Shown here in pieces: positions 4,127 to 49,291 of a stretch of 64,000 bases of DNA. The stretch spans positions 558,001-622,000 of the forward strand of contig CP051243.1 of assembly GCA_017795025.1 (NCBI GenBank), in the 5' to 3' direction. Position numbers and translations under genes: made by a program. Numbering within the stretch: position 1 is the stretch's first letter; every line of letters begins with the position of its first letter. This DNA is from Flavobacteriales bacterium (GTDB lineage Bacteria > Bacteroidota > Bacteroidia > Flavobacteriales > Schleiferiaceae). The notes under the pieces were generated by a model that was not told the origin of the DNA, ran no database searches, and saw nothing but the letters and a program-made list of their open reading frames with translations.

Positions 4127-5904
4127 TGCAGCACGATATTCATAAACGCTTAGAAGCGGCGACCGCCGAAATTCTTCAAGATCTATACGGACTCGAGAAG
4201 GCTCCCATCGATTGGCAAGCCACGCGCAAGGAGTTTGAGGGCGACTTAACCTTAGTGGTTTTTCCTTACCTCCGCTCCAGCAAGAAAAAGCCGGAAGCAA
4301 CCGCCGAGGAAATCGGTCAGGTCCTGTTAGAGAATGTAGCCGAAGTACACAGCTTTAATGTGATTAAAGGCTTTTTGAATGTTGAGATTTCCAATGAATA
4401 TTGGTTAGCCTGCTTGCACGGAATTCAAGACCTGGAAAACTTTGGTAAAGCAGCCCCGCAAGACGAGACGATTTTGGTGGAATACTCTTCCCCCAATACC
4501 AATAAACCCCTGCACCTTGGGCATATCCGTAATATCTTATTGGGCTACTCGGTATCGCAAATTTTAAGCGCCGCCGGAAAGCAAGTTAAGAAGGTGCAAA
4601 TCATCAACGACCGCGGGATTCACATCTGCAAAAGCATGGTCGCTTGGCAGAAGTTTGCCAATGGAGAAAGTCCGGAAAACAGTGAGCTTAAGGGAGACCA
4701 TTTAGTAGGTAAATACTATGTAGCTTTTGATAAAGCCTACAAGGAGGAAATTGCCGCCTTGGAGGCCGCCGGAAAAACGGAGGAAGAAGCCAAAGAACAA
4801 GCGCCGATTTTATTGGAAGCGCGCGATACCCTGCGCAAATGGGAACAAGGGGATGCCGATACGGTGAAGCTTTGGGAAATCATGAACAGCTGGGTTTACA
4901 GCGGTTTTAATGCCACCTACGATCGACTGGGCGTTAACTTCGATAAGAATTATTACGAAAGCAATACCTATTTATTAGGCAAGCAAGTAGTAGAAGAGGG
5001 CCTCGAAAAAGGCATTTTCTTCCGCAAGGAAGATGGCTCGGTTTGGTGCGATTTGGAAGCGGAGAAATTAGGCGAAAAGCTCCTGCTTCGTAAGGATGGG
5101 ACCAGCGTATACATGACTCAGGATATTGGTACAGCCATTCAACGTTACGAAGACTTCGGTATCGACGGCATGATTTATACCGTGGGTAATGAGCAGGACC
5201 ATCACTTTAAGGTGCTTTTTGCCATCCTTAAAAAACTCGGCTATAAATGGGCAGCGAAATTATACCACCTTTCCTATGGCATGGTCGATTTACCTTCGGG
5301 TAAGATGAAATCTCGTGAGGGAACGGTTGTCGACGCCGACGACCTAATGGATGAAATGTTTGGTACCGCCAAGAGTATTTCGGAGGAACTGGGTAAAACG
5401 GATGGCATCAGCGAAAGCGAAAAAGAGGCCCTTTACCACCAAATTGGAATGGGCGCTTTAAAGTATTACATCCTTAAAGTGGACCCTAAAAAACGGATGC
5501 TCTTTAATCCGGAAGAATCGGTTGATTTCCAGGGAAATACCGGCCCTTTTATTCAGTATACCCATGCGCGCATCCAGTCGCTTATTCGCAAGGGAGCCGA
5601 TTTAACTTTTTCGGCCTCTGCCAGCTACACGGAGCTGATTAGTCAGGAGCGCGATTTAATTAAGAGCATCTTAGCCTTTCCGGAGGTCGTTTTAGAAGCG
5701 GCCAAGGAACAAGCGCCTTCTACCATTGCCAATTATACCTACGATTTGGTGAAACAATACAATGGCTTTTACCAGCAAGTAAGCATCCTTAACGATGCGA
5801 ATTCGGCAGCGGTGCATTTTAGGCTAGACCTATCCCGTAAAACAGCCGCGGTGATTAAAACGGCTATGGGCTTATTGGGAATTGCGGTACCCGATCGGAT
5901 GTAA
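4126..5904 (+). CDS. argS: Arginine-tRNA ligase
   Basis: A 592-residue class I aminoacyl-tRNA synthetase that charges tRNA-Arg. The N-terminal Add-1-like domain is followed by the HLGH signature at 130-133, in the context PLHLGHIRN, and by a KMSKS-like loop, GKMKSREGT, near residue 391. The C-terminal all-helical DALR anticodon-binding domain ends in a typical run of Ala, Ile and Met residues. Length and motif order are those of bacterial ArgRS. It begins inside the arginase stop codon and ends one base before the end of a convergent lipoprotein gene, so any terminator must be inside that gene or absent. Confidence 0.97.
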   Translation: MQHDIHKRLEAATAEILQDLYGLEKAPIDWQATRKEFEGDLTLVVFPYLRSSKKKPEATAEEIGQVLLENVAEVHSFNVIKGFLNVEISNEYWLACLHGIQDLENFGKAAPQDETILVEYSSPNTNKPLHLGHIRNILLGYSVSQILSAAGKQVKKVQIINDRGIHICKSMVAWQKFANGESPENSELKGDHLVGKYYVAFDKAYKEEIAALEAAGKTEEEAKEQAPILLEARDTLRKWEQGDADTVKLWEIMNSWVYSGFNATYDRLGVNFDKNYYESNTYLLGKQVVEEGLEKGIFFRKEDGSVWCDLEAEKLGEKLLLRKDGTSVYMTQDIGTAIQRYEDFGIDGMIYTVGNEQDHHFKVLFAILKKLGYKWAAKLYHLSYGMVDLPSGKMKSREGTVVDADDLMDEMFGTAKSISEELGKTDGISESEKEALYHQIGMGALKYYILKVDPKKRMLFNPEESVDFQGNTGPFIQYTHARIQSLIRKGADLTFSASASYTELISQERDLIKSILAFPEVVLEAAKEQAPSTIANYTYDLVKQYNGFYQQVSILNDANSAAVHFRLDLSRKTAAVIKTAMGLLGIAVPDRM

Positions 5905-5905
5905 A

Positions 5906-6649
5906 CTAAAGGTAGCTAAGGCTAAAGCATTCTCTACTCCAAACTTCCCCGCTGCCTTCGTGCCATGATTTTTCGAAGGACTGCAAGCGGGATTGACTAT
6001 CGTATTCGTAAGAATAAGTTCGATAGTTTTCACCGTTCGGCGGGGGTAGATCCCCATAACTTGTTTCCTTAATAGGATAATAGGACAGGGGTAAACCTAA
6101 AAACTGCCATTCGCTAAAGAGTACTCCCGTATAAGGGTCGGTACCAAATTCGAAGCGGGTAGTTGGAGGTGGAATGAGTCCATTTTTGAGTACACGTAAA
6201 TAGGGGTTTCCGAGGCTGTCGAGATGGTAGATGGTTTTTCCCTCATCGTAAATCCGCGCATCATTAAAAAACCGGCCGCTGCTGCTCAAGACGACGCTGT
6301 CCTGGTAAAAGCTTATCTGATGTTCCTTACGGTAATCGGTATTGGCACCAAAAAAGATGCTATCCACTAAGCGGTAAGCTTCACCATTTTGCCGAAAGTA
6401 AGTGCTTATTTGACTGGGCACATTGGTGTCGGAGGGGTAATAGCTTACCCGAATCACACTGTCTCGATTTTCAATTTTTTGGAGGAAGTGCTCCTCTTCA
6501 ATTTGGTAAGCTTGCGGATTTTTGAAGTCCCTAAGGATGATGAACTTTTCCCTGCACTCCGGTTCGGTTCCAATGGGGGGATCCGATTCTTTGTCGCAGG
6601 ATGCCCCTAAAAACAAAAGAAGTAAAAGGATAAATGTGGATCGAAGCAT
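5906..6649 (-). CDS. Putative surface lipoprotein
   Basis: The predicted product has 247 residues starting at ATG 6649 (MLRSTFILLLLLFLGASC). The hydrophobic run followed by LGASC is a lipobox. The residues after the cysteine (DKESD) are acidic, with one Lys, as in the lipoprotein export signals that send Bacteroidota lipoproteins to the cell surface. The mature part is rich in Tyr, Ser and Asp and contains YSYEYDSQSRLQSF, resembling a YD-type beta repeat. No enzyme motif is visible. An in-frame start 57 bases upstream (6706) would put a non-signal extension in front and is less likely. The gene is convergent with argS. Confidence 0.7.
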   Translation of the reverse strand: MLRSTFILLLLLFLGASCDKESDPPIGTEPECREKFIILRDFKNPQAYQIEEEHFLQKIENRDSVIRVSYYPSDTNVPSQISTYFRQNGEAYRLVDSIFFGANTDYRKEHQISFYQDSVVLSSSGRFFNDARIYDEGKTIYHLDSLGNPYLRVLKNGLIPPPTTRFEFGTDPYTGVLFSEWQFLGLPLSYYPIKETSYGDLPPPNGENYRTYSYEYDSQSRLQSFEKSWHEGSGEVWSRECFSLSYL

Positions 6650-6754
6650 GCTCAAAAGTAGAATCCTCCAGCTGCCGAAGCAAGGTAGATTGAGTGCCAA
6701 AAGCAATTGATTGAGGAAACGTTGCAGCGATTCAGGCGGAACGCCCCAAATTCA

Positions 6755-6762
6755 TAAATTTG
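6755..6762 (+). promoter_or_regulatory. -7 box for ffh
   Basis: TAAATTTG fits TAnnTTTG and ends 20 bases before the ffh ATG at 6783. This implies a leader of about 15 bases. No clear -33 element is seen at 18-21 bases upstream. Confidence 0.5.
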
Positions 6763-6782
6763 CAGCCCATTAAAACAAAGCT

Positions 6783-8126
6783 ATGTTTGATAATCTACAG
6801 GATAAACTCGAAAAAGCCTTTCACGTATTAAAAGGACACGGACAAGTGTCGGAAGTAAACGTGGCGGAAACGTTGAAGGAAATTCGCCGAGCCTTAGTGG
6901 ATGCCGACGTTAGCTTTAAAATTGCCAAGGACTTTACCAATACGGTTAAAGAGAAGGCGCTCGGGGCAGATGTATTAACGAGTTTAAAACCGGGTCAAGT
7001 ACTTACCAAGGCGGTTCGCGATGAGATGGCCGAACTGATGGGCGGTACTGCGGCCGAGTTGGATATAAGCGCTAAGCCCACCGTTATCCTGATGGCGGGC
7101 TTGCAAGGTTCGGGTAAAACAACCCACTCGGGTAAACTGGCGAACTATTTAAAGCGTAAGAAAACCCGTAAAGTATTATTGGTAGCTGGTGATGTTTACC
7201 GTCCGGCGGCCATTGACCAATTGCACGTCGTAGGGGAGCAAATTGGCGTAGAGGTATTTTCCGATAAAGAGAATAAGAATCCGGTAGATATTGCCGAGAA
7301 GGCCTTGGCCCATGCTAAGGCCAACGGACATAATGTGGTGATCATTGATACCGCCGGTCGTTTAGCGATTGACCAGGATATGATGACCGAGATCCGCAAT
7401 ATTCACAAAGCGGTGAAGCCACAAGAAACCTTGTTTGTGGTAGACTCAATGACCGGTCAGGATGCGGTAAACACCGCTAAAGCTTTTAACGATGTATTGG
7501 ATTACAACGGGGTAATCCTCACCAAATTGGATGGTGATACCCGCGGTGGTGCGGCGCTTACCATTCGTTCGGTAGTTAAAAAACCCATCAAGTTTATTGG
7601 TACCGGCGAAAAGATGGATGCCCTAGATGTTTTTCATCCTACCCGTATGGCCGACCGTATCCTCGGCATGGGGGATGTAGTTTCTTTGGTAGAGCGCGCC
7701 CAGGAGCAGTTCGACGAAGACGAAGCGCGTCGGGTTCAAAAGAAGATTGCCAAAAACCAGTTTGACTTCGACGATTTCTTGGGTCAGATTAATCAGATCC
7801 GAAAAATGGGTAACATGAAGGATTTGATGGGAATGATTCCCGGAATGGGCAAGATGATGAAGAACATCGATTTAGACGATGATGCCTTTAAAGGAGTGGA
7901 AGCCATAATCCAATCCATGACCCCCGAGGAAAGAGCGAATCCAAAGTTGATTAACGGTAGTCGTCGCAAGCGTATCGCCGATGGTTGCGGCAAAGGTATT
8001 CAGGAAGTAAACCAGCTCATGAAGCAGTTTTCGGAAATGAGTAAGATGATGAAAATGATGCAAGGCGCTGGTGGTCGCAGAGGAATGGCCAATATGATGA
8101 AGGGCATGGGGCGTCGCCCGATGTAA
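6783..8126 (+). CDS. ffh: Signal recognition particle protein Ffh (SRP54)
   Basis: This 447-residue GTPase binds 4.5S RNA and signal sequences and targets ribosomes making membrane proteins to FtsY. An N-terminal helical bundle is followed by the G domain: P-loop GLQGSGKTT from about residue 106, GDVYRPAAIDQL, DTAGRL near 189 and TKLDGDTRGGAAL. The M domain has the expected methionine-rich segments (MGNMKDLMGMIPGM) and the RNA-binding helix region with GSRRKRIADGCG. It ends in a Met/Gly-rich tail. All parts are intact and the length is typical. Confidence 0.97.
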   Translation: MFDNLQDKLEKAFHVLKGHGQVSEVNVAETLKEIRRALVDADVSFKIAKDFTNTVKEKALGADVLTSLKPGQVLTKAVRDEMAELMGGTAAELDISAKPTVILMAGLQGSGKTTHSGKLANYLKRKKTRKVLLVAGDVYRPAAIDQLHVVGEQIGVEVFSDKENKNPVDIAEKALAHAKANGHNVVIIDTAGRLAIDQDMMTEIRNIHKAVKPQETLFVVDSMTGQDAVNTAKAFNDVLDYNGVILTKLDGDTRGGAALTIRSVVKKPIKFIGTGEKMDALDVFHPTRMADRILGMGDVVSLVERAQEQFDEDEARRVQKKIAKNQFDFDDFLGQINQIRKMGNMKDLMGMIPGMGKMMKNIDLDDDAFKGVEAIIQSMTPEERANPKLINGSRRKRIADGCGKGIQEVNQLMKQFSEMSKMMKMMQGAGGRRGMANMMKGMGRRPM

Positions 8127-30067: not shown

Positions 30068-30772
30068 TTAAAGCAGGATGCTTTTCTGATCTTTCTGATC
30101 TTGTAAAAGATAGTGATACCGAAAGTCTAGTTGGTTGTTTTGGTACTCCGCCTGACAAAAACTAACGGTCTCTAAGATAAACCCTGAGTCGAGCAAAAGG
30201 CCTCCTTCCTTGGCGGAAAGTTGCCGGTCGAGATGAAAGCTTTCAATAAGACCGGCAGATATGGTTTCTTGCCGCCCCAGCCATCTGCGAAAGCGCGCTT
30301 CGCGAGCAGCCCTAATATTAGGGTGGTAGAGTTTAGTGCTACTCCAAAAATGCGCTTCATTGGGGTTTAAGGCTTTCCAGTGATTGGCGTTTGGATCATG
30401 TTGCAATTGCCAAAGCTCGCCAGCTCTCGCCAAAATCAAGGTAAAGGGCTCTACCCCTTCGAAGCTTTCCTTTTGTAATTCCTCGAGATTGGGGTTTTGG
30501 AAGAAATTTAAAATCACCTTACCCCGGCTGTAAGCATAAGGTAGCTTGCGTAAATAGGGAATACTCCCTCCATTTAAAAGGCAAAGGGTCCAGCCCGATT
30601 CATGCACCCCCATCCAAGTGCCGCCCGCTTTGAGGTCTTGCGGAAAAAAACCTTTTAAGCCAAAATCTTCTCGTTCTTCTAAGGTGGAGCTACTCTCACG
30701 CTGCGGAAGTTCGTCGCGGTTATGACTTAAAATAAAGCCTTCTTTTTGAGGAAGATAACTAAGGCTGCACAT
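30068..30772 (-). CDS. NRDE/TANGO2 family protein
   Basis: A 234-residue protein with the family opening MCSLSYLPQKEGFILSHNRDE and the ESSSTLE...GGTWMGVHESGW region expected for the NRDE fold, an N-terminal-nucleophile-like hydrolase. In eukaryotes TANGO2 has been linked to haem and acyl-CoA handling, but the bacterial role is not known. Cys2 would become the N-terminal residue after methionine removal, as in N-terminal-nucleophile enzymes. It lies three bases after the type II NADH dehydrogenase stop and is the last gene of the five-gene operon. Confidence 0.82.
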   Translation of the reverse strand: MCSLSYLPQKEGFILSHNRDELPQRESSSTLEEREDFGLKGFFPQDLKAGGTWMGVHESGWTLCLLNGGSIPYLRKLPYAYSRGKVILNFFQNPNLEELQKESFEGVEPFTLILARAGELWQLQHDPNANHWKALNPNEAHFWSSTKLYHPNIRAAREARFRRWLGRQETISAGLIESFHLDRQLSAKEGGLLLDSGFILETVSFCQAEYQNNQLDFRYHYLLQDQKDQKSILL

Positions 30773-30775
30773 AGT

Positions 30776-32062
30776 TTACTTTGTGGAGCGATGCCAAGGG
30801 CGAATAATCAGTCGGATTTTACGATCATAACTAAAGTAGTTCACCAGCCAGTTAAAGAATACCACTACACGATTGCGAAACCCTACCAAACTCAAGAGGT
30901 GAACCGCCATCCACACGGCCCAGCCCGGGAAACCTTTTAGCATGAGCTTATTGTATAATTCCGCTACTGCTTTGTTTCGTCCCACGGTGGCCATGGTTCC
31001 TTTGTCTTTATAACGGAAGGCTTTCCAATTACTCGGATTTTTACGGCTATTGAGGTTTTTAGCCAAATTTAAACCTTGTTGGATGGCTACCTGAGCAAGC
31101 ATAGGGTGCCCTTTAGGCGTGTCCTTCGCTTGCATGGAGGCTACATCACCAATGGCATAAATATTTTGGTGTTCCCCAATTTGATTAAAGGTATTCACCA
31201 AATAGCGGCCTCGCTCGTAGTCCTTGCCTTCTTCCAAGCCAGCGATAATATTCCCCTTAACGCCTGCTGCCCAAATTAAAGTAGAGGCGGGAATATCTTT
31301 CTTATTGGTTTTTACCACGGATCCATCATAGGATTCTACGGCCGTGTTTAACCAAACTTGCACCCCCAAGGATTCTAAGTACTGCAAGGCATTGCGAGAA
31401 GAGAACTCTTGCATGGGCGGTAAAACCTTATCGGCCATTTCAATTAAATGGATGGACATCCGTCGAAAATCGAGGTCAGGATAATCGTTGGGCAGCACAT
31501 GGGTTTTTAGTTCCGCCAAAGCACCTGCCAATTCGGTTCCGGTAGGACCGGCACCTACAATGGCGAAATTCATTAAACGTTCGCGCTCTTGTAAATCTTG
31601 ACTTAATGAGGCCGCTTCAAAGTTTTGGAGCATTAAGCTGCGGAGGTTAAGGGCTTCGGGAACCGTTTTCATCGGCATACTCCATTTCTCTACCTGCTCC
31701 ATCCCAAAGTAATTGGTTTCACTGCCGGTGGCGATGATAAGATGGTCGTAGCTTAAACTCCCAATATTACAATGGAGGATCTTCTTTTCCGCATCAATCT
31801 TTTGAGCCTCCGCCAAGCGAAAATAGAAGTTGGGTAACTTTCTAAAAATGTTTCGAATGGGGTAGGCGATTGAATCGGGCTCTAGGCCAGCGGTGGCTAC
31901 TTGGTAGAGTAGGGGTTGAAAAGTGTGGTAATTGTGTTTATCAATCATCACCACTTGATAGACCTTATGATTGAGCTTTTTCGCCAAATTAAGTCCACCA
32001 AATCCGCAACCTATAATTACGATTCGTTCGAGGTTATTGTCGGGAATATTTAATCCTTCCAT
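30776..32062 (-). CDS. Type II NADH:quinone oxidoreductase (NDH-2-like)
   Basis: A 428-residue FAD enzyme. The FAD-binding motif is VIIGCGFGGLNLAKKL (GCGFGG) near the N-terminus. The NADH-binding motif is IVGAGPTGTELAGALAEL, and the second FAD contact is IYAIGDVASM. The C-terminus has the hydrophobic, aromatic membrane-binding segment seen in this family. It should pass electrons from NADH to quinone without pumping protons. It starts five bases after the QEGLA/DUF1704 gene ends, in the same operon. Other FAD pyridine-nucleotide enzymes are possible. Confidence 0.88.
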   Translation of the reverse strand: MEGLNIPDNNLERIVIIGCGFGGLNLAKKLNHKVYQVVMIDKHNYHTFQPLLYQVATAGLEPDSIAYPIRNIFRKLPNFYFRLAEAQKIDAEKKILHCNIGSLSYDHLIIATGSETNYFGMEQVEKWSMPMKTVPEALNLRSLMLQNFEAASLSQDLQERERLMNFAIVGAGPTGTELAGALAELKTHVLPNDYPDLDFRRMSIHLIEMADKVLPPMQEFSSRNALQYLESLGVQVWLNTAVESYDGSVVKTNKKDIPASTLIWAAGVKGNIIAGLEEGKDYERGRYLVNTFNQIGEHQNIYAIGDVASMQAKDTPKGHPMLAQVAIQQGLNLAKNLNSRKNPSNWKAFRYKDKGTMATVGRNKAVAELYNKLMLKGFPGWAVWMAVHLLSLVGFRNRVVVFFNWLVNYFSYDRKIRLIIRPWHRSTK

Positions 32063-32067
32063 AGTGT

Positions 32068-34077
32068 TTATTCGAGTCCGCTCAAGATGTAGTTGTAAAT
32101 ACCCTGAGTGCTTTCATTTTTTGGATTCACAAAGCTATGGCTTATGTATTTAGGCTTTTTGATGATTTCGCGATCCATCATTTCCGAAAGCGTATCATAA
32201 AACTCTACTGAGGTTTTACCAACTAATAGTGGGCTTAAATCGCTGTCGCTTTCATACATCCTCAAAATCTTTACAAATCCACTGAGGTAAAGGTAGTCTT
32301 TAGTAAATCCGCCGCCTCTAAATACACGGGTACAAATACTAAAGGCGTCTTTTGGGGTATAGAGCTCCGATTGGATCAAATAGTTAAAGCACTGTTGAAA
32401 ATCGGCCCCATTACACATCATATCCACTACGCGTACGCGAGAGGCAAGTTTCTTTAAACGCTTTAAGCTGATATTGCCACTCAGGTATTCTGCCAAAATT
32501 GCTAATCCCTCTTGGGTGCGGGTGTTAACCGGCATACCTAAGTTGAAAATCTTTAGATCTTGCAAATTGGAATTTTGCGTGGTTACCATATGAACCCCCA
32601 GTTCATGTTCGATTAAGGCGGCTAATTCGCGCTTATTAAAATTGGCATCGGGACGAATAAGCACGGTTTTTTTGGAGTTCAAAACCATTACTTGCGAAAT
32701 CACCCGTTTGCTCAGTTCTATTTTCCCGTTCATTTGATAGATGTCCATCGCCTCGCGGAAAGCTTCGACCACTTCCTCAATGGGCAAATTTGCCATGCGC
32801 TTTGGTTCGGATGGAATAGGGGGAAGTAGCGATAAATACTGGGCATTTCTTAAATCGGCATTGCTTGGCCGACCAAAGTAACGCAGGGAGTTAAAGAGGA
32901 ACTTTTCGGTATTTAAGCTCGCGAGCAAGTCTACCTTATCGAAATAAGAATTGATGACCGACTCGTACAAATAGCGAATGGAAACATCGCTGATGTTTTG
33001 GGTTTTGAGTCCACCGAGCTGCTGTTTTAAACTAAAAGGCTGAATTTTAATCGGCGCATATCGGAATTGCGGAGGCTCACTGTAATTCTTCTTAAAAAAC
33101 CTTTTGCGCTCTGCGTCGGTATTGGTTGGGTTTACAAAGGCCAAAAGCTCAAAGCTTTTAAGCATCCGATAAAGGGCGGTATCGATCTTCTTTAATTCGG
33201 GATCAAGGCCCTTATGCAAGAGCATTCCCGGTTTTGAAAGTCGGAAGGTGGTTTCTTTATCCGCAAAAAACTCGGCGGTTTGCAGGATGGCCGTTTTAAA
33301 CTTGCGTTGCAGCAGGCGCACTACATCTGGAAAATCCTCCCCACTTGATTCGTTGCAATACACCTTCTTAACCTCCGTGGCCAGTACCAAGGTGTTTTGG
33401 AAATGGGCACTAATGTATTCCAGGTTGTAGCCTAGGCCCATAAACACATCATTAATGGCGCAAACACTAGGCTCATTGGGAACTTCAATTTGCTCTAATT
33501 CATTTTGCCACTTCTTGATGTAAGGGCCAAACCGAGCTTCATCAACCCGAGCGGTGCCAATATTAAACAAGGGTACCTGTCGGTCCCAGCGCTGCCAGTT
33601 ATAGGAGTGAATATCAAAAACTAAACAAGCCTCGAATCGCCGCTCTAATTCCGTCACCAAGGCGTGTAGTATTTGATAATAGTTATCGTGCTTGCGCAAG
33701 CTTTTACTCTGGTCGCGAGGACTTAGTTTCTTGCTCCAAACATCTTTACCCCAGGCCGTATCGTAAATGGCGGCAATAGGCCTACGGTTTAAATCGTATT
33801 CATAGCGGGAGTCACCGCCTACTATGGTTATAGGTAAAGATGATATAAAGGCATCAGTATGGGGATCTTCCTCATACCAACGTTGGTATTCATCTAGGGC
33901 AATTTTTTTCTGTAGTTCTTCCCTTAAACGTCCACCGGCGTGAATAGCCGTACAGAGGTAAGGAACATAGCGTTCTACCTTAACAACTAGGCTTTTATCT
34001 CTAGTTTGGGCTTCAAATGTTTCACCTGATTGTATTAATCTGATAATTTCTTCAGGACTCAGTATTTGCGTCGTCAT
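32068..34077 (-). CDS. N-formylglutamate amidohydrolase-DUF1704 (QEGLA) metallopeptidase fusion
   Basis: The 669-residue protein joins two zinc-enzyme-like parts. Residues about 35-260 carry N-formylglutamate-amidohydrolase motifs: AIHAG (44-48), DPHTDAF (71-77), SRYEYDLNR (90-98) and DIHS (155-158). Residues about 290-669 form DUF1704, with HELGVH (491-496) and TQEGLA (521-526), the likely zinc-binding and catalytic set. Bacterial members have been annotated as 'flavohemoglobin expression-modulating QEGLA protein'. Eukaryotic DUF1704 proteins include tubulin tyrosine carboxypeptidases of the MATCAP type, so peptidase activity is plausible. The ATG overlaps the end of the ATP-grasp ligase gene by 26 bases. 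The substrate is unknown. Confidence 0.85.
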   Translation of the reverse strand: MTTQILSPEEIIRLIQSGETFEAQTRDKSLVVKVERYVPYLCTAIHAGGRLREELQKKIALDEYQRWYEEDPHTDAFISSLPITIVGGDSRYEYDLNRRPIAAIYDTAWGKDVWSKKLSPRDQSKSLRKHDNYYQILHALVTELERRFEACLVFDIHSYNWQRWDRQVPLFNIGTARVDEARFGPYIKKWQNELEQIEVPNEPSVCAINDVFMGLGYNLEYISAHFQNTLVLATEVKKVYCNESSGEDFPDVVRLLQRKFKTAILQTAEFFADKETTFRLSKPGMLLHKGLDPELKKIDTALYRMLKSFELLAFVNPTNTDAERKRFFKKNYSEPPQFRYAPIKIQPFSLKQQLGGLKTQNISDVSIRYLYESVINSYFDKVDLLASLNTEKFLFNSLRYFGRPSNADLRNAQYLSLLPPIPSEPKRMANLPIEEVVEAFREAMDIYQMNGKIELSKRVISQVMVLNSKKTVLIRPDANFNKRELAALIEHELGVHMVTTQNSNLQDLKIFNLGMPVNTRTQEGLAILAEYLSGNISLKRLKKLASRVRVVDMMCNGADFQQCFNYLIQSELYTPKDAFSICTRVFRGGGFTKDYLYLSGFVKILRMYESDSDLSPLLVGKTSVEFYDTLSEMMDREIIKKPKYISHSFVNPKNESTQGIYNYILSGLE

Positions 34078-35092
34078 ATAGGGACTCGGGGCGAAAATCT
34101 TCTTTAAGTTGATTGCGGCTTTCGACTACTTTTTCGAGGTAGTCTAATATCTTCTCTTGTAACTTTACTTTGTACAGGGCATTGATGTCTTTAAGGGTAC
34201 CGGGACTTAATACATTGATTTCAATCAATTTACTATTAATGAGGTCAAGACCGGCATAATAGATTCCGTCCTTCACTAGTTTTTCCCCAATACGCTTACA
34301 AAGAATTTTATCCTGTTTGGTTAAACGGTAGCGTTCAACGGTTCCGCCAGCCGAAATATTGGAGCGCACATCTCCCGCTGGGGGTCTGCGACGCAAGGCA
34401 CCAATCGGCTCGCCATTAAGCATGATTACCCGAACATCGCCTTCTTCGGCTCCTTCGATATAATCCTGAAGGATAACATAGTTGGATTTGCCTTTTTCGC
34501 GGTGAATGTAAAAGTCGAGGAGGGAGCGGATATTGTGCATGGCCGACTTTTCGATTACAATTACGCCACTCCCACCAAAGCCGTCGAGCGGTTTCATAAT
34601 CATTTTATCCTGATCCGACTCTTGGATAATGCGTAGCAGGTAATCGAGGTTTTTAGACACATGGGTGGCCGGAATCAGTTCACGCTCCGGGTCGTAGTAT
34701 GCGGCAGTGTAAATCTTATTGTTGGCTTCCCGCAGGCCATTTACATCATTAATGATAAAGACATCATCCTTGATGGAGTCCAAAAAGTTAAGTACCAAAT
34801 TATCCAGCGGCGGATTATCGCGCATAAAGATGACATCGAATTCCCCGAGGGGACTCATTTCTGGCTTAAACTGAATTTCTCGGTAAAAGGCCTTAATGCT
34901 TTTTGGGGGTTTATCTGCACTATCAATCCACTTGCATAAGCTTAAGGTTACGCTGTCGCGGATGGTTAAATTGGCAGTATGGGTAATGGCCACCTCATGT
35001 CCGCGCTTTACAGCTTCGTGGATTATTCGGATGGTAGAATCCTGGGCCGGGTTAACCCTTTCCCAGGGATACATGATAAAACAGATCTTCAT
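34052..35092 (-). CDS. Glutathione synthetase-like ATP-grasp ligase
   Basis: The 346-residue protein has the GshB-type ATP-grasp layout: FMRDNPPLDN (about 89-98), NDVNGLREANNKIY, the nucleotide-binding MKPLDGFGGSGV (166-177), YVILQDYIEGAEEGDVRVI, RRRPPAGDVRSNISAGG (234-250) and LIEINVLSPG (289-298). Such enzymes join a carboxylate to an amine through an acyl phosphate. It could make glutathione itself, but coupling to a formylglutamate-amidohydrolase/peptidase gene suggests another glutamyl or peptidyl product. No gamma-glutamylcysteine ligase is in the window. It lies six bases after the serine hydrolase gene. Confidence 0.87.
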   Translation of the reverse strand: MKICFIMYPWERVNPAQDSTIRIIHEAVKRGHEVAITHTANLTIRDSVTLSLCKWIDSADKPPKSIKAFYREIQFKPEMSPLGEFDVIFMRDNPPLDNLVLNFLDSIKDDVFIINDVNGLREANNKIYTAAYYDPERELIPATHVSKNLDYLLRIIQESDQDKMIMKPLDGFGGSGVIVIEKSAMHNIRSLLDFYIHREKGKSNYVILQDYIEGAEEGDVRVIMLNGEPIGALRRRPPAGDVRSNISAGGTVERYRLTKQDKILCKRIGEKLVKDGIYYAGLDLINSKLIEINVLSPGTLKDINALYKVKLQEKILDYLEKVVESRNQLKEDFRPESLYDDANTES

Positions 35093-35098
35093 TAATTA

Positions 35099-36406
35099 TT
35101 AGCGTTTAAAAGGAACCTTTAATCCTCCTTGTTCAAAATTCATAGTGCCGGCTTCGGGATTAAAGGTCATGGTAATTCCGGCTGCTTTAAATTCAAATAC
35201 ATTGTCGCCTTTGGCGCTTAGCGGAAAGGCCCCCTGTCCACTAGCCTGGGCCTTTAAGGTTTTTCCTTCGAGGAAGACTTTAATGTCTAAGGGGAAGTTG
35301 GCAGATTTATAGGTTCCGGTGTAGCGCACTAATACTTCCTCTTCTAATTCCAGTTTTTCAAAGCTCGGTAGTTCATATCCCTCCCGTTGAAAGTAGATGG
35401 AAAGAATGTCAATTAAAAGGTCGTTCATGGGGTACTGACTTCCGTTTAAGCATAGGGCAATGGCTAAATCCTCGGAGGGCATATAACTGGCGTGGCTTAC
35501 GAAGCCATCAATACCACCGTTATGACCAAAAGCCAGTTTATCATAAAAAGGATAACGAAATAATCCTAGTCCCGTTTCCGATGGACCTTTCATAATTTCT
35601 AAAGCTTCTTCGGACAAAAACTCAGCTTGATGCAAGCCTCGCATAAACAAGCACAATTCCTCTGGATGGGAAACCACTCCGCCAGCCCCTAATGGTATGC
35701 TAGGATGCGTATTGGTGGCCGCGGTCCAGCTGCCTGTCCAGTAATAGCTATCAGCCTCCGCTTCACTGCGTTTTTCTGCTGTAAAGAAGTAGGTATTGTC
35801 GAGTTTGGCTTGAGTGCAAATATTTTCGCTTAAGAGCTGAGCAATCGGTTTTTGATAGAGGTCTTCTAAGATGTAGCTAAGCAGTACATAATTGGTATTG
35901 GAGTATTCCATTTTCTCATCCGGACTAAAGTCGGGCTCCAAGAGGGCAAAACGCTGCAGCATTTGCTCTTTGGTTTGAGGGCTTTCCATGATGGAGGAAT
36001 AAGCGGCATCATTGGTGAAGTTATGAATGCCACTACGATGAGCTAAAAGCATGCGGATATCAATTGAGGCCGCATTGGAAATCTCTGGATACCACTGGGC
36101 TAAATTGTCCTCAAGCTCCAGTTTACCATCAGCCACAGCTTGCATAACTAGGGTAGCGGTAAAGGTTTTGGATATGGAGCCAATGCGATAGAGCGGACTT
36201 TGCCGACTAATAGTCGTACTCCCTTTGGAAATGGTAGCTTGATAAAACGGCCTCCCTTCTTTAAGAATGTAAACCGATCCCAAGACTTGATTCTCGCGCG
36301 CTAAGAGGGAAAATAGGCTGTCTAATTGGGCGGTGGGATTTTGGGCGGCAATAGAAAAACTGAGTAACAGTAGGCCTGCGGTGCTCATTAGGTTTTTAAG
36401 AAACAT
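35099..36406 (-). CDS. Secreted serine hydrolase of the class C beta-lactamase/PBP fold
   Basis: A 435-residue protein with a signal peptide (MFLKNLMSTAGLLLLSFSIA). The nucleophile motif SxxK is SISK in RIGSISKTFTATLV, the YxN motif is YSN in MEYSNTNYVLLSYIL, and the third motif is HNGG in FGHNGGIDGF. A C-terminal region from about residue 345 looks like the beta-sandwich extension often found in this group. It is the first gene of the five-gene minus-strand operon and lies six bases before the ATP-grasp gene. Whether it acts on the product of the ligase is unknown. Confidence 0.85.
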   Translation of the reverse strand: MFLKNLMSTAGLLLLSFSIAAQNPTAQLDSLFSLLARENQVLGSVYILKEGRPFYQATISKGSTTISRQSPLYRIGSISKTFTATLVMQAVADGKLELEDNLAQWYPEISNAASIDIRMLLAHRSGIHNFTNDAAYSSIMESPQTKEQMLQRFALLEPDFSPDEKMEYSNTNYVLLSYILEDLYQKPIAQLLSENICTQAKLDNTYFFTAEKRSEAEADSYYWTGSWTAATNTHPSIPLGAGGVVSHPEELCLFMRGLHQAEFLSEEALEIMKGPSETGLGLFRYPFYDKLAFGHNGGIDGFVSHASYMPSEDLAIALCLNGSQYPMNDLLIDILSIYFQREGYELPSFEKLELEEEVLVRYTGTYKSANFPLDIKVFLEGKTLKAQASGQGAFPLSAKGDNVFEFKAAGITMTFNPEAGTMNFEQGGLKVPFKR

Positions 36407-46781: not shown

Positions 46782-47843
46782 ATGGCTGGAAATTCGTTCG
46801 GAAATCTTTTAAAATTAAGCACCTTCGGTGAGTCTCATGGCGAAGCCATTGGTGGAATACTCGATGGATTTCCCGCCGGTTTAGAGCTTGACCTAGACTT
46901 TGTTCAGCAGCAATTAGACCGTCGTAAACCGGGTCAGTCGCGAATCAGCAGTCAGCGCAAAGAAAGCGATACCCTTCAAATCCTATCCGGCATCTTTGAA
47001 GGCAAAAGTACCGGAATGCCCATTGGCTTCATCATCCCGAATGCTGATGCTAAATCCAAAGATTACAATCATATAAAGGATAAATTTCGTCCTTCTCATG
47101 CTGATCGCACTTATGCCGAGAAATATGGGCATCGTGATTATCGTGGAGGCGGAAGATCCTCGGCACGAGAAACAGCTGTCCGCGTAGCGGCAGGGGCCTT
47201 AGCGATGCAAATTCTCCCCCAAGTGAAAATAAGGGCCTATGTATCTTCGGTTGGGCCTATTGATCTGGATCATGACCTCAGCTTAGATTATTCCAAAATT
47301 GACCAGCACATCACGCGTTGTCCGCATCCCGAAACGGCGGCTCTAATGGAGCAAGCAATAGTAGAGGCCCGAAAACAAGGAGATAGCCTCGGTGGAATTA
47401 TTACCTGTCGGGTGGAAGGCTTGGATGTCGGTTTAGGCGAGCCCGTTTTTAATAAGCTACCCGCTGAACTCGCTAAAGCGATGATGAGTATAAATGCCGT
47501 TAAGGGTTTTGAAATCGGAGAGGGATTTGCAGCCGCACGCATGAAAGGATCGGAACATAATGATACCTATGGCGAGGATGGAAAAAGGCGGAGCAACCAT
47601 GCCGGAGGGGTAGAAGGCGGTATTAGCACCGGAGAGGACCTTGTTTTTCGAACGGCCTTTAAACCGGTGGCCACCATAATGAGCGATCAACAGGGATTAA
47701 ATACCGAAGGCGAAATGGTAACCGTGGCGGGTAAAGGTCGACACGATCCATGCGTGGTTCCTCGCGCCGTACCTATTGTAGAAGCTATGACCGCCCTGGT
47801 ACTGGCCGACTATTTTTTATTAAACCGAAGTTCAAGAATCTAA
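46782..47843 (+). CDS. aroC: Chorismate synthase
   Basis: The 353-residue enzyme makes chorismate from EPSP, the last common step of aromatic synthesis, and needs reduced FMN. All three family signatures are present: [19 protein letters not shown] near the N-terminus, [19 protein letters not shown] in the middle, and [27 protein letters not shown] in the C-terminal part, followed by [16 protein letters not shown]. Length is normal. The symporter gene starts two bases after the stop, so an operon is possible. Confidence 0.97.
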
Positions 47844-47845
47844 AT

Positions 47846-49291
47846 ATGAAAGTAGCCCTACACTGGAAAATTCTCATTGGTTTAAGCCTAGGTGTTATTT
47901 GGGCCTTCATCAGCAGCAGCTTAGGATGGAGCCAGTTTACCATTAATTGGATAGATCCATTTGGAACCATCTTTATCAACCTCCTAAAGCTTATTGCTGT
48001 TCCTTTGGTTTTTTTCAGCATTATCTCCGGAGTTACGGGATTAGGTGATCCCTCCAGCTTAGGACGAATGGGTTTACGGACCTTAATCTTTTACTTCTTT
48101 ACCACCCTTTCGGCGGTAAGCCTGGGTTTGATATTAGTCAATAGCTTTGGTCCGGGTCGTTTGGTAGATGAGGACACCCGAATTGACAATCGTATTACCT
48201 ACGAATTATGGGCTCAGGAAAAGCAGGTTGAGGTTAAGGACCAGAAAAACTTTTTACAAAACCCAGCTTATGAGGATCGCGTGGCCCGAATTCAAAGTTT
48301 GGGGGGCGAAACTATTGATCCCGAAGTAGAGAAAAGCATGAAAATCGCTCAGGCTACCAAGGACGCCGGACCGATGCAAAAAGTAGTGGATATTATTCCC
48401 TCCAATATCTTCGAGGCCTTGGCCAATAATGGTCAGATGTTACAGGTAATATTCTTCGCTTTGTTCTTTGGAATCGCCTTGCTCTTTATTCCGGGCGATA
48501 AAGGGCAACCGGTCATTGACCTGGTGAATGCCATTATGGAGGTTTTACTTAAGATGGTCGACTTTATAATGCAAGCGGCGCCCTTCTTTGTATTTGCCTT
48601 ATTAGCGGGAACCATCAGTAAAATGGCGGGCGATGATGTTTCGAAAATGCTAGATATTTTCGCAGGACTGTCCTGGTACTCCTTAACCGTGTTTGTTGGA
48701 TTGGCCTTTATGGTAGCTATTTTTTATCCTTTGCTACTAAAACTTGTGGTACGTAAAATACCTTTTACGGGCTTTTTTAAAGCAATGAGCCCAGCTCAAA
48801 CCTTGGCTTTTAGTACGTCTTCATCAGCGGCAACCTTACCCGTAACCATGGAATGCGTGGAAGATAATTTAGGTGTCGATAAGAAGATTACCAGCTTTGT
48901 GCTACCCATTGGCGCTACTGTAAATATGGATGGTACCAGCTTATATCAGGCAGTAGCCGTAGTGTTTTTGGCGCAGTTCCATTTAATTGATCTCGATTTA
49001 GCCCAGCAGCTAACCATCGTGCTTACCGCCACCTTGGCTTCCATTGGCTCGGCGGCGGTGCCAAGTGCTGGCTTGGTGATGTTGATTATTGTGCTCGAAT
49101 CCGTTGGTCTCAATCCGGCCTGGATAGGTATTATCCTTCCGGTAGATCGAATTTTGGATATGTGCCGAACCGTAGTAAATGTAACCGGTGATGCCACTGT
49201 ATCTTCCATTATTGCGGCTCGCGAAAATCTTTTAAACTATCGTCAGTCTCACGATACAGACGATACCTTTAACCCTGACGTTAACCCTTAA
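47846..49291 (+). CDS. Dicarboxylate/amino acid:cation symporter (SDF family)
   Basis: From ATG 47846 the product has 481 residues and about eight membrane segments plus two re-entrant loops. The family signatures are TSSSAATLPVTMECVEDNLG and PIGATVNMDGTSLYQAVAVVFLAQ, with the final DRILDMCRTVVNVTGD segment that binds substrate and cation. It should import glutamate, aspartate or a C4-dicarboxylate with Na+ or H+. A large soluble insertion at about 105-180 follows the third helix. It starts directly after aroC, though its role is not clearly linked. Confidence 0.9.
   Translation: MKVALHWKILIGLSLGVIWAFISSSLGWSQFTINWIDPFGTIFINLLKLIAVPLVFFSIISGVTGLGDPSSLGRMGLRTLIFYFFTTLSAVSLGLILVNSFGPGRLVDEDTRIDNRITYELWAQEKQVEVKDQKNFLQNPAYEDRVARIQSLGGETIDPEVEKSMKIAQATKDAGPMQKVVDIIPSNIFEALANNGQMLQVIFFALFFGIALLFIPGDKGQPVIDLVNAIMEVLLKMVDFIMQAAPFFVFALLAGTISKMAGDDVSKMLDIFAGLSWYSLTVFVGLAFMVAIFYPLLLKLVVRKIPFTGFFKAMSPAQTLAFSTSSSAATLPVTMECVEDNLGVDKKITSFVLPIGATVNMDGTSLYQAVAVVFLAQFHLIDLDLAQQLTIVLTATLASIGSAAVPSAGLVMLIIVLESVGLNPAWIGIILPVDRILDMCRTVVNVTGDATVSSIIAARENLLNYRQSHDTDDTFNPDVNP

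Follow-up and report, generated by a model that had tools for sequence, protein, structure and literature searches.

Do a GshB-like ATP-grasp ligase and a double hydrolase, encoded by two overlapping genes of a Flavobacteriales bacterium (Schleiferiaceae), write and erase amino acids on the same substrate? The question is raised by a stretch of 64,000 nucleotides (positions 558,001 to 622,000 of contig CP051243.1, assembly GCA_017795025.1), hereafter referred to as the window. Its minus strand carries the ligase gene (LIG1, 346 amino acids) at 34052-35092 as the upstream gene and, as the downstream one, a gene of 669 codons at 32068-34077 whose product joins an N-formylglutamate amidohydrolase (FGase) domain to a MATCAP domain. 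Both open reading frames (ORFs) have the coordinates given in the first-pass annotation of this DNA, and so has the overlap of 26 bases (34052-34077) between the end of the ligase and the start of the fusion, through which the two genes may be translationally coupled. The pairing of such ligases with MATCAP is beyond chance. In the following, G and L labels denote genomes and loci, respectively; the window genome, G000, consists of one contig of 3.44 Mb and is 99.97% complete.

The domains that the first-pass annotation had read from the sequence, a GshB-like ATP-grasp protein and an FGase joined to DUF1704, were confirmed by Pfam. The ligase matches GSH-S_N (86.4 bits) and GSH-S_ATP (168.8 bits); the fusion matches FGase (PF05013) at residues 39-227 (58.5 bits, cut-off 28.9) and MATCAP (PF08014, which we take to be the former DUF1704) at residues 325-656 (317.3 bits, cut-off 27). 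All the motifs occupy exactly the residues previously reported for them, that is, AIHAG (44-48), SRYEYDLNR (90-98) and DIHS (155-158) in the FGase domain, and the HExxxH zinc motif HELGVH (491-496, 32590-32607, minus strand) and QEGLA (522-526, 32500-32514, minus strand) in the MATCAP domain. The conserved residues of the former are H46, S90-R91, E93, D95, N97-R98, D155, H157 and E235. In the latter, H491, E492, H496 and E523 are invariant in the MATCAP alignment, E523 being the presumed third zinc ligand of gluzincins. The MATCAP part also passes the model TIGR02421 of the QEGLA motif proteins (345.1 against 338.65), and the fusion does not reach the equivalog cut-off of the HutG N-formylglutamate deformylase model TIGR02017 (14.9 against 278.75).

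The predicted structure of the fusion (predicted local distance difference test, pLDDT, 93.7; predicted template modelling score, pTM, 0.90) was in agreement with these assignments. Residues 27-275 (33253-33999, minus strand) match the FGase 2q7s (2q7s_B) with a Z of 25.5 and a root-mean-square deviation of 2.2 over 238 residues, and M14 carboxypeptidases with a Z of about 11-13. Residues 312-669 (32071-33144, minus strand) match human MATCAP (7z6s_C) with a Z of 25.5 and a deviation of 3.0 over 296 residues, which supports the suggested kinship of DUF1704 with this tubulin carboxypeptidase. Moreover, a profile alignment to 7z5g pairs HELGVH and QEGLA with HEIGTH and EGLA, and also KD..YL. A set of 80 named loci was collected as the best 80 of at least 574 relatives found with the pattern QEG[LI]AV[LFM][SA]E; it favours near relatives, mostly Flavobacteriia, and a count of QEGLA on it carries no independence. 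HExxxH is present in all 80 of these MATCAPs and R..RGGG..KD..YL, largely retained in human MATCAP, in 79. Concerning the ligase, the nearest structure to its model (pLDDT 84.8) is E. coli GshB (TM 0.79 on the query, 28% identity in the structural match), followed by RimK, and PsnB is also among the matches. It does not reach the cut-off of the RimK family TIGR00768 (88.3 against 143.4), and no TTL family is found among the seven Pfam families listed to E = 1.

The linkage of the two genes was analysed in two partly overlapping samples of 296 Bacteroidota and 395 Flavobacteriales genomes, counting as strong ligases the GSH-S_ATP matches with E up to 1e-30 and, in the Flavobacteriales, as neighbours the genes within 3 kb (largest observed gap, 2,989 bases). 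In the Flavobacteriales, 34 out of the 38 MATCAP-bearing genomes have a strong GshB-family ligase as a neighbour and 37 out of 39 strong ligases adjoin MATCAP (co-occurrence, Fisher P about 2e-43, shared ancestry ignored). The Bacteroidota sample harbors MATCAP in 16 genomes and strong GSH-S_ATP in 17, with both in 15 (P about 3e-22, shared ancestry likewise ignored); the ligase lies at the MATCAP locus in 15 of the 16, and 17 of the 19 strong ligases, that is, all 17 in MATCAP genomes, are at MATCAP loci. The two genes are therefore far from rarely linked, contrary to the outcome that the first-pass annotation had named as refuting its idea. The weaker RimK-like matches of the MATCAP genomes lie away from the MATCAP locus, and none of 14 named control genomes harbors MATCAP.

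The ligases of G076 and G194, genomes lacking MATCAP, score 228-231 bits and group with E. coli GshB in the tree described below; of the two Flavobacteriales ligases without MATCAP, one is an additional, GshB-like copy in G614 (226.6 bits), and the other lies at the edge of a contig of 3.45 kb in a genome that is 65% complete. The exception among the Bacteroidota MATCAPs, G186, has a divergent MATCAP and no strong ligase. Three of the four lone Flavobacteriales MATCAPs belong to one genus and correspond to two complete, short, divergent proteins and a fragment at a contig edge. As for the named loci, 76 out of 80 harbor the ligase, whole or cut by the contig (L089); it is partial at an edge in L104, and L049 and L072 end 1.3 and 0.9 kb upstream with no ligase seen. 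The module also occurs in rhizobia, Photobacterium and one actinobacterium; Sinorhizobium meliloti has it on pSymB in the order FGase, MATCAP, ligase, and its cultivable marine flavobacterial hosts include Kordia and Polaribacter. Proteobacteria were reached through plasmid records alone, 11 out of 127 of which were opened for MATCAP, non-randomly; the ligase stands beside MATCAP in 8 of these 11 loci (rhizobia, Photobacterium).

The organization of the module follows two types. In type A the order is ligase 1, FGase and MATCAP. Fusion of the last two is found in the window, Salinivirgaceae, several metagenome-assembled genomes (MAGs) of Flavobacteriales, one MAG each of Cytophagales and Bacteroidales, and Photobacterium sp. 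DA100, whose ligase 1 overlaps the fused gene by 23 bases; most of the Flavobacteriaceae loci seen encode them separately. Overlaps of 4 to 23 bases between the ligase and the downstream gene recur in relatives (e.g., L182, L178, L033, L181, L040, L113). Fused proteins account for 13 out of 80 named loci, namely 12 of type A plus that of Tessaracoccus, which has type B kinship and ligase 2 downstream. Four of the fused loci from Bacteroidota MAGs (L038, L039, L041, L069) share two opposite-strand neighbours: an upstream gene of about 1,160 to 1,220 amino acids and a downstream one that reads, from its sequence, as aminotransferase-like. The usual order in type B, seen in nine Bacteroidota loci (L022-L024, L026-L031) and seven rhizobial plasmid loci, is FGase, MATCAP with an N-terminal domain of about 230 residues, and ligase 2. 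Both ligase clades thus occur beside MATCAP; in G103 and G118 both ligases surround a single FGase and a single MATCAP, with all genes in one run on the same strand, and two ligases flank the MATCAP of G566.

In L023 and L024, the two proteins scanned, the N-terminal domain of the type B MATCAP matches no Pfam family. A single profile comparison pairs 144 of its columns with the FGase C-terminal half (probability 95.9%, E 6e-9), and the FGase-conserved DIHSYN and E-xx-K positions are lost. Hence, the domain fused to the type B MATCAP appears to be an FGase that has degenerated, and an intact FGase gene is usually found next to it. Since type B has a degenerate FGase fused to MATCAP and fused type A an intact one, the data suggest that FGase and MATCAP work as one complex, although loci without an FGase gene speak against such a complex being required.

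Because the ligase is regularly tied to hydrolases with intact motifs, a writer and an eraser are the best reading of the module, and we regard the reversible addition and removal of amino acids at the carboxyl end of a peptide or protein as its most likely function, with belief and doubt about evenly balanced. In this group of ligases, the coupling of an amino acid to a carboxyl group proceeds via an acyl phosphate; MATCAP cleaves residues off the C terminus, and the FGase family hydrolyses amides of acidic amino acids. The ATP-grasp ligase would then activate the carboxyl group of a peptide or protein as acyl phosphate and join to it one or more amino acids, probably acidic; the MATCAP domain would act as a zinc carboxypeptidase removing the C-terminal residue, and the FGase domain would hydrolyse the amide bond to an acidic residue. 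In this scheme we infer that the enzymes share their substrate, that the reversal takes place in the cell, that the amino acid is acidic and that the carrier is a protein tail or a free oligopeptide.

The first-pass annotation had compared the pair to the tubulin tyrosination cycle (TTL with MATCAP/TMCP or VASH). The parallel holds for the eraser, a homologue with the MATCAP fold and the HExxxH, EGLA and R-KD-YL motifs; it fails for the writer, a GshB relative with no TTL family match, and the FGase domain is an addition. The TMCP enzymes of the MATCAP family are reported to be gluzincins whose HExxxH motif is extended and which cleave tyrosine and glutamates from the C terminus (PMC10499314). 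Since the ligase is a relative of GshB with RimK as the next structural neighbour and no TTL match, the closest working analogue is the ribosomal S6 polyglutamylation system RimK/RimB rather than the tubulin ligase. There the same logic has been demonstrated by experiment: RimB removes the glutamates added by RimK and RimBK hybrids exist (PMC11957791), so that an ATP-grasp ligase of the same structural group is likewise linked to a peptidase undoing its work. The two systems differ in that the window ligase is GshB-like and scores below the RimK cut-off, that RimB is an aspartic retropepsin-like protease whereas the window erasers are predicted zinc hydrolases, and that RimBK fuses protease with ligase whereas the window fuses two hydrolases. 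A further likeness is offered by RloABC of Pseudomonas aeruginosa, in which ATP-grasp and peptidase genes are involved in hypo-osmotic tolerance (PMC12239564); that system has secreted aspartic peptidases and a membrane transglutaminase-like protein, and the available portion of its description includes neither MATCAP nor FGase.

A possible physiological setting comes from Photobacterium damselae. According to the accessible part of an RNA-seq study at 1% versus 3% NaCl (PMC10308900), A0J47_RS17020 (GshB) is up 38.4-fold at 1% NaCl, the adjacent tag RS17025 (QEGLA protein) 27.5-fold and RimK 52-fold. As ligase 1 overlaps the fused FGase-MATCAP in Photobacterium sp. DA100, we read these two tags as a type A module. 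In an available table on Vibrio vulnificus, a COG3930 gene likewise stands beside a 'glutathione synthetase' (PMC3091676).

Taken together, these observations would be consistent with a broader and more tentative scenario: the eukaryotic carboxypeptidases acting on tubulin tails would be members of an older family of bacterial origin, found chiefly in the context of a reversible peptide tag coupled to an ATP-grasp enzyme; in a second bacterial lineage a dead FGase domain, mostly with an intact FGase next to it, would carry MATCAP, the two zinc hydrolases of different fold would form one eraser complex, and this complex would take off the tags that a GshB-like ligase puts on the tail of a protein as part of an osmotic response. 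We regard this scenario as rather improbable, a judgement lowered slightly because some loci have no FGase gene.

Several findings weigh against a writer and eraser pair. To begin with, the co-occurrence fits a one-way pathway equally well and cannot tell it from a cycle, and we know of no activity, substrate or mutant of the module. The linkage has its gaps: the four lone MATCAPs among the 38 of the Flavobacteriales, the fourth being that of G531 (L183, 6942-8111), which has kept its type A MATCAP and lost both ligase and FGase; L042, with no ligase within 2.4 kb upstream; short MATCAPs without ligase at two loci of Pseudoalteromonas and one of Aeromonas; and two Ensifer plasmids with ligase 2 and no MATCAP in about 13 kb. 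Moreover, FGase is not obligatory: among the nine Bacteroidota loci of type B, L029 and L031 have none beside MATCAP, nor anywhere in the 11 to 15 kb covered. A 3-mercaptopyruvate-sulfurtransferase-like gene in 31 out of 80 named loci hints at thiol chemistry; the GshB equivalog model PRK05246 accepts the window ligase (274 against 272) and the Photobacterium one (291.7); and the two P. damselae tags are putative members of the module. Finally, the tails of FtsZ, the relative of tubulin in bacteria, show no difference following the module within the families compared. The C-terminal ends were compared in 29 out of 30 genomes (the FtsZ of the window genome was not recovered by motif) and read ..VD in 16 out of 16 genomes without the module, G186 being counted among these, and in 10 out of 13 with it; the other three (G171, G211, G231), whose FtsZ ends in ..IMD or ..MMD, belong to distant families from which no module-free genome was compared. 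FtsZ as the substrate is thus unsupported by the sequences.

Two of these cases deserve a description of their own. The MATCAP of G531 adjoins an SDF symporter (81%) and a chorismate synthase (74%), keeps HEIGVH and has QEGMA as the second motif. A shorter MATCAP type of about 420-445 amino acids, without ligase, is represented by L122 (Pseudoalteromonas, 5617-6897, near betaine synthesis genes), L114, L117, L017, L185 and L186.

The strongest alternative, which suits the observations almost as well and which we consider possible albeit doubtful, is the one-way biosynthesis of a small peptide or thiol, in which one or two GshB-like ligases would extend an N-acylated amino acid, FGase would deacylate the product and MATCAP would trim it as a maturation step. 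Ligases of the GshB, RimK and LysX type make small peptides or extend peptides, FGase-family enzymes are by name hydrolases of N-acyl-amino acids, and two different ligases stand together in two operons. The sulfurtransferase-like gene (216.8 bits, below its own cut-off of 250) separates ligase from FGase in 29 out of 80 named loci (e.g., L022, L043-L048), as would suit a thiol; nevertheless, it is found in none of the 13 fused named loci and is absent from the window. In 55 out of 80 named loci the ligase is preceded by a gene for an SDF symporter, but this gene may follow the chorismate synthase rather than the module: chorismate synthase is flanked by an SDF homologue in 7 out of 10 module-free relatives, two of the seven being close to the module's symporter (63 and 81% identity) and five at 32-33%, and G531 keeps symporter and MATCAP without the ligase. 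In addition, no recurrent carrier or export gene was found in the clusters seen, whose labels come mostly from sequence reading. The symporter is thus probably a bystander of synteny, and a transport operon was rejected on the same grounds. In many Flavobacteriaceae the module stands directly beside the chorismate synthase/SDF pair, and the window itself has a chorismate synthase followed by an SDF symporter homologue (45%) at 46809-49273. The data suggest that the module was inserted at a shared site beside this pair.

The chemistry of writing and erasing might also serve to build and degrade a free polypeptide, a store or an osmolyte similar to cyanophycin or poly-alpha-glutamate, an idea that we regard as unlikely. 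RimB stimulates poly-alpha-glutamate synthesis by RimK, as the accessible text states (PMC11957791), and the low-salinity induction in Photobacterium would suit an osmolyte. The FGase fold resembles the phage poly-gamma-glutamate hydrolase 3a9l as well, but its Z of 11.4 is no better than those of ordinary carboxypeptidases in the same list, and no such polymer is known.

A more conventional explanation, with a normal glutathione synthase next to a normal deformylase and a peptidase that has nothing to do with them, turned out to be very unlikely. In its favour are the GSH-S_N and GSH-S_ATP domains, the plasmid annotation 'glutathione synthetase' and the scores with PRK05246, which exceed the cut-off for the window and Photobacterium ligases but not for the two ligase 2 proteins scanned (209.6 and 219.2). 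The other GshB equivalog, TIGR01380, is not reached by the window ligase (226 against 299.05), nor is the deformylase model HutG by the fusion. The best-fitting NCBIfam model is PRK12458, named glutathione synthetase: three relatives score 436 to 488 bits, the window ligase reaches 407.8, just under the cut-off of 408, and E. coli GshB 222. NCBIfam gives the names glutathione synthetase or synthase to the ligases at 34052-35092 and in L113, L115 and L023, despite their own clades.

The phylogenetic tree comprised 35 rows, including 8 of GshB (that of E. coli being the only one experimentally established, the other seven assigned by annotation or similarity), 13 of ligase 1 and 12 of ligase 2 (one of which, LIG2_L084, starts four residues into the ligase), with RimK present. 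GshB, ligase 1 and ligase 2 each fall on one side of a branch, with support values of 95/96, 96/100 and 98/99; the long RimK and LIG2 branches meet, and such joins and the root are unsure. According to these sequences, the ligases form two clades separate from GshB. Ligase 1 shares with E. coli GshB the fold, the domain composition and core residues, among them the GshB-invariant K125, K160, D208, R210, R225, R233, N235, D273, E281 and N283 (E. coli numbering). By analogy with the family, the kept residues would serve ATP and Mg binding. Unlike E. coli GshB, ligase 1 has D9, D88, E124, D215, T285 and T288, among others, changed at the invariant positions.

The genome content points in the same direction. 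The window genome has no match to the known gamma-glutamylcysteine ligase families searched, Glu_cys_ligase (PF04262) and GCS2 (PF04107), and the ligase at 34052-35092 is its sole GSH-S_ATP gene; among the 16 MATCAP genomes of the Bacteroidota sample, Glu_cys_ligase occurs in none and GCS2 in 6, including the ligase-less G186. Because of the separate clades and the lack of a detectable gamma-glutamylcysteine ligase in the genome, ordinary glutathione synthesis by the ligase is unlikely, and we rejected it as the principal explanation. Synthesis of glutathione from gamma-glutamylcysteine, which the first-pass annotation had named among the outcomes that would contradict a cycle, is in this way made improbable by genome content and tree.

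Least likely of all is the maturation of a ribosomal, graspetide-like peptide cross-linked by the ligase and freed of its leader by the peptidase: other ATP-grasp ligases do so, PsnB is among the structural matches and some of these clusters contain zincin-superfamily peptidases (PMC8939145, in the part available), but the gaps of 6, -26, 5 and 3 bases leave no space for a precursor within the gene run of the window, and the sole recurrent small ORF between core genes, among those of at least 80 amino acids collected, has 108 amino acids, no significant Pfam match and a presence in 9 out of 80 named loci.

The run in question consists of five genes on the minus strand, in the following order: a serine beta-lactamase/esterase-like gene (35099-36406, 6 bases upstream of the ligase), the ligase, the fusion, a type II NADH dehydrogenase-like gene (30776-32062, 5 bases downstream of the fusion) and a TANGO2-like gene (30068-30772, 3 bases further). 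Five out of the seven genomes of the genus in the order sample, the window's included, harbor MATCAP (G349 and G568 do not). Of the four other MATCAP-bearing congeners, three (G322, G342, G426) share this order of five genes, and in the fourth one (G538) the ligase and the fusion alone are retained, in different surroundings. The three accompanying genes had no partner in a clustering of 95 other loci. As they lack partners beyond the congeners, we take ligase, FGase and MATCAP as the core and the others as operon mates; the beta-lactamase-like gene, too, is a probable mate outside the core. A regular-expression search revealed no Bacteroidota-type promoter motif at the operon, and the phage (PHROGs) and defence (PADLOC) libraries gave zero matches.

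Pairs of a ligase and a peptidase are already known. The open-licence literature that we searched yielded no functional account of bacterial MATCAP/DUF1704, nor of the pairing of a GshB-like ligase with FGase and MATCAP, in line with the first-pass annotation, which knew of no experimental account of the gene pair. The work of Iyer et al. 2009 on amidoligases may discuss such neighbourhoods, and an earlier prediction is therefore possible. The MATCAP part falls under the name 'flavohemoglobin expression-modulating QEGLA motif protein' (TIGR02421/COG3930), which implies no mechanism, and the available parts of the papers matching these terms describe no function.

These data provide a concrete bacterial setting for the MATCAP family, whose members are described in the open-licence literature searched only as tubulin carboxypeptidases. 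Two clades of ligases that are called glutathione synthase in databases probably have another function, so that glutathione capacity may be overestimated in database annotations; similarly, this module may be what the published low-salinity results on a Photobacterium 'GshB' are about. Lastly, the compact set of genes is found in cultivable bacteria, which makes the function of bacterial DUF1704 directly testable.

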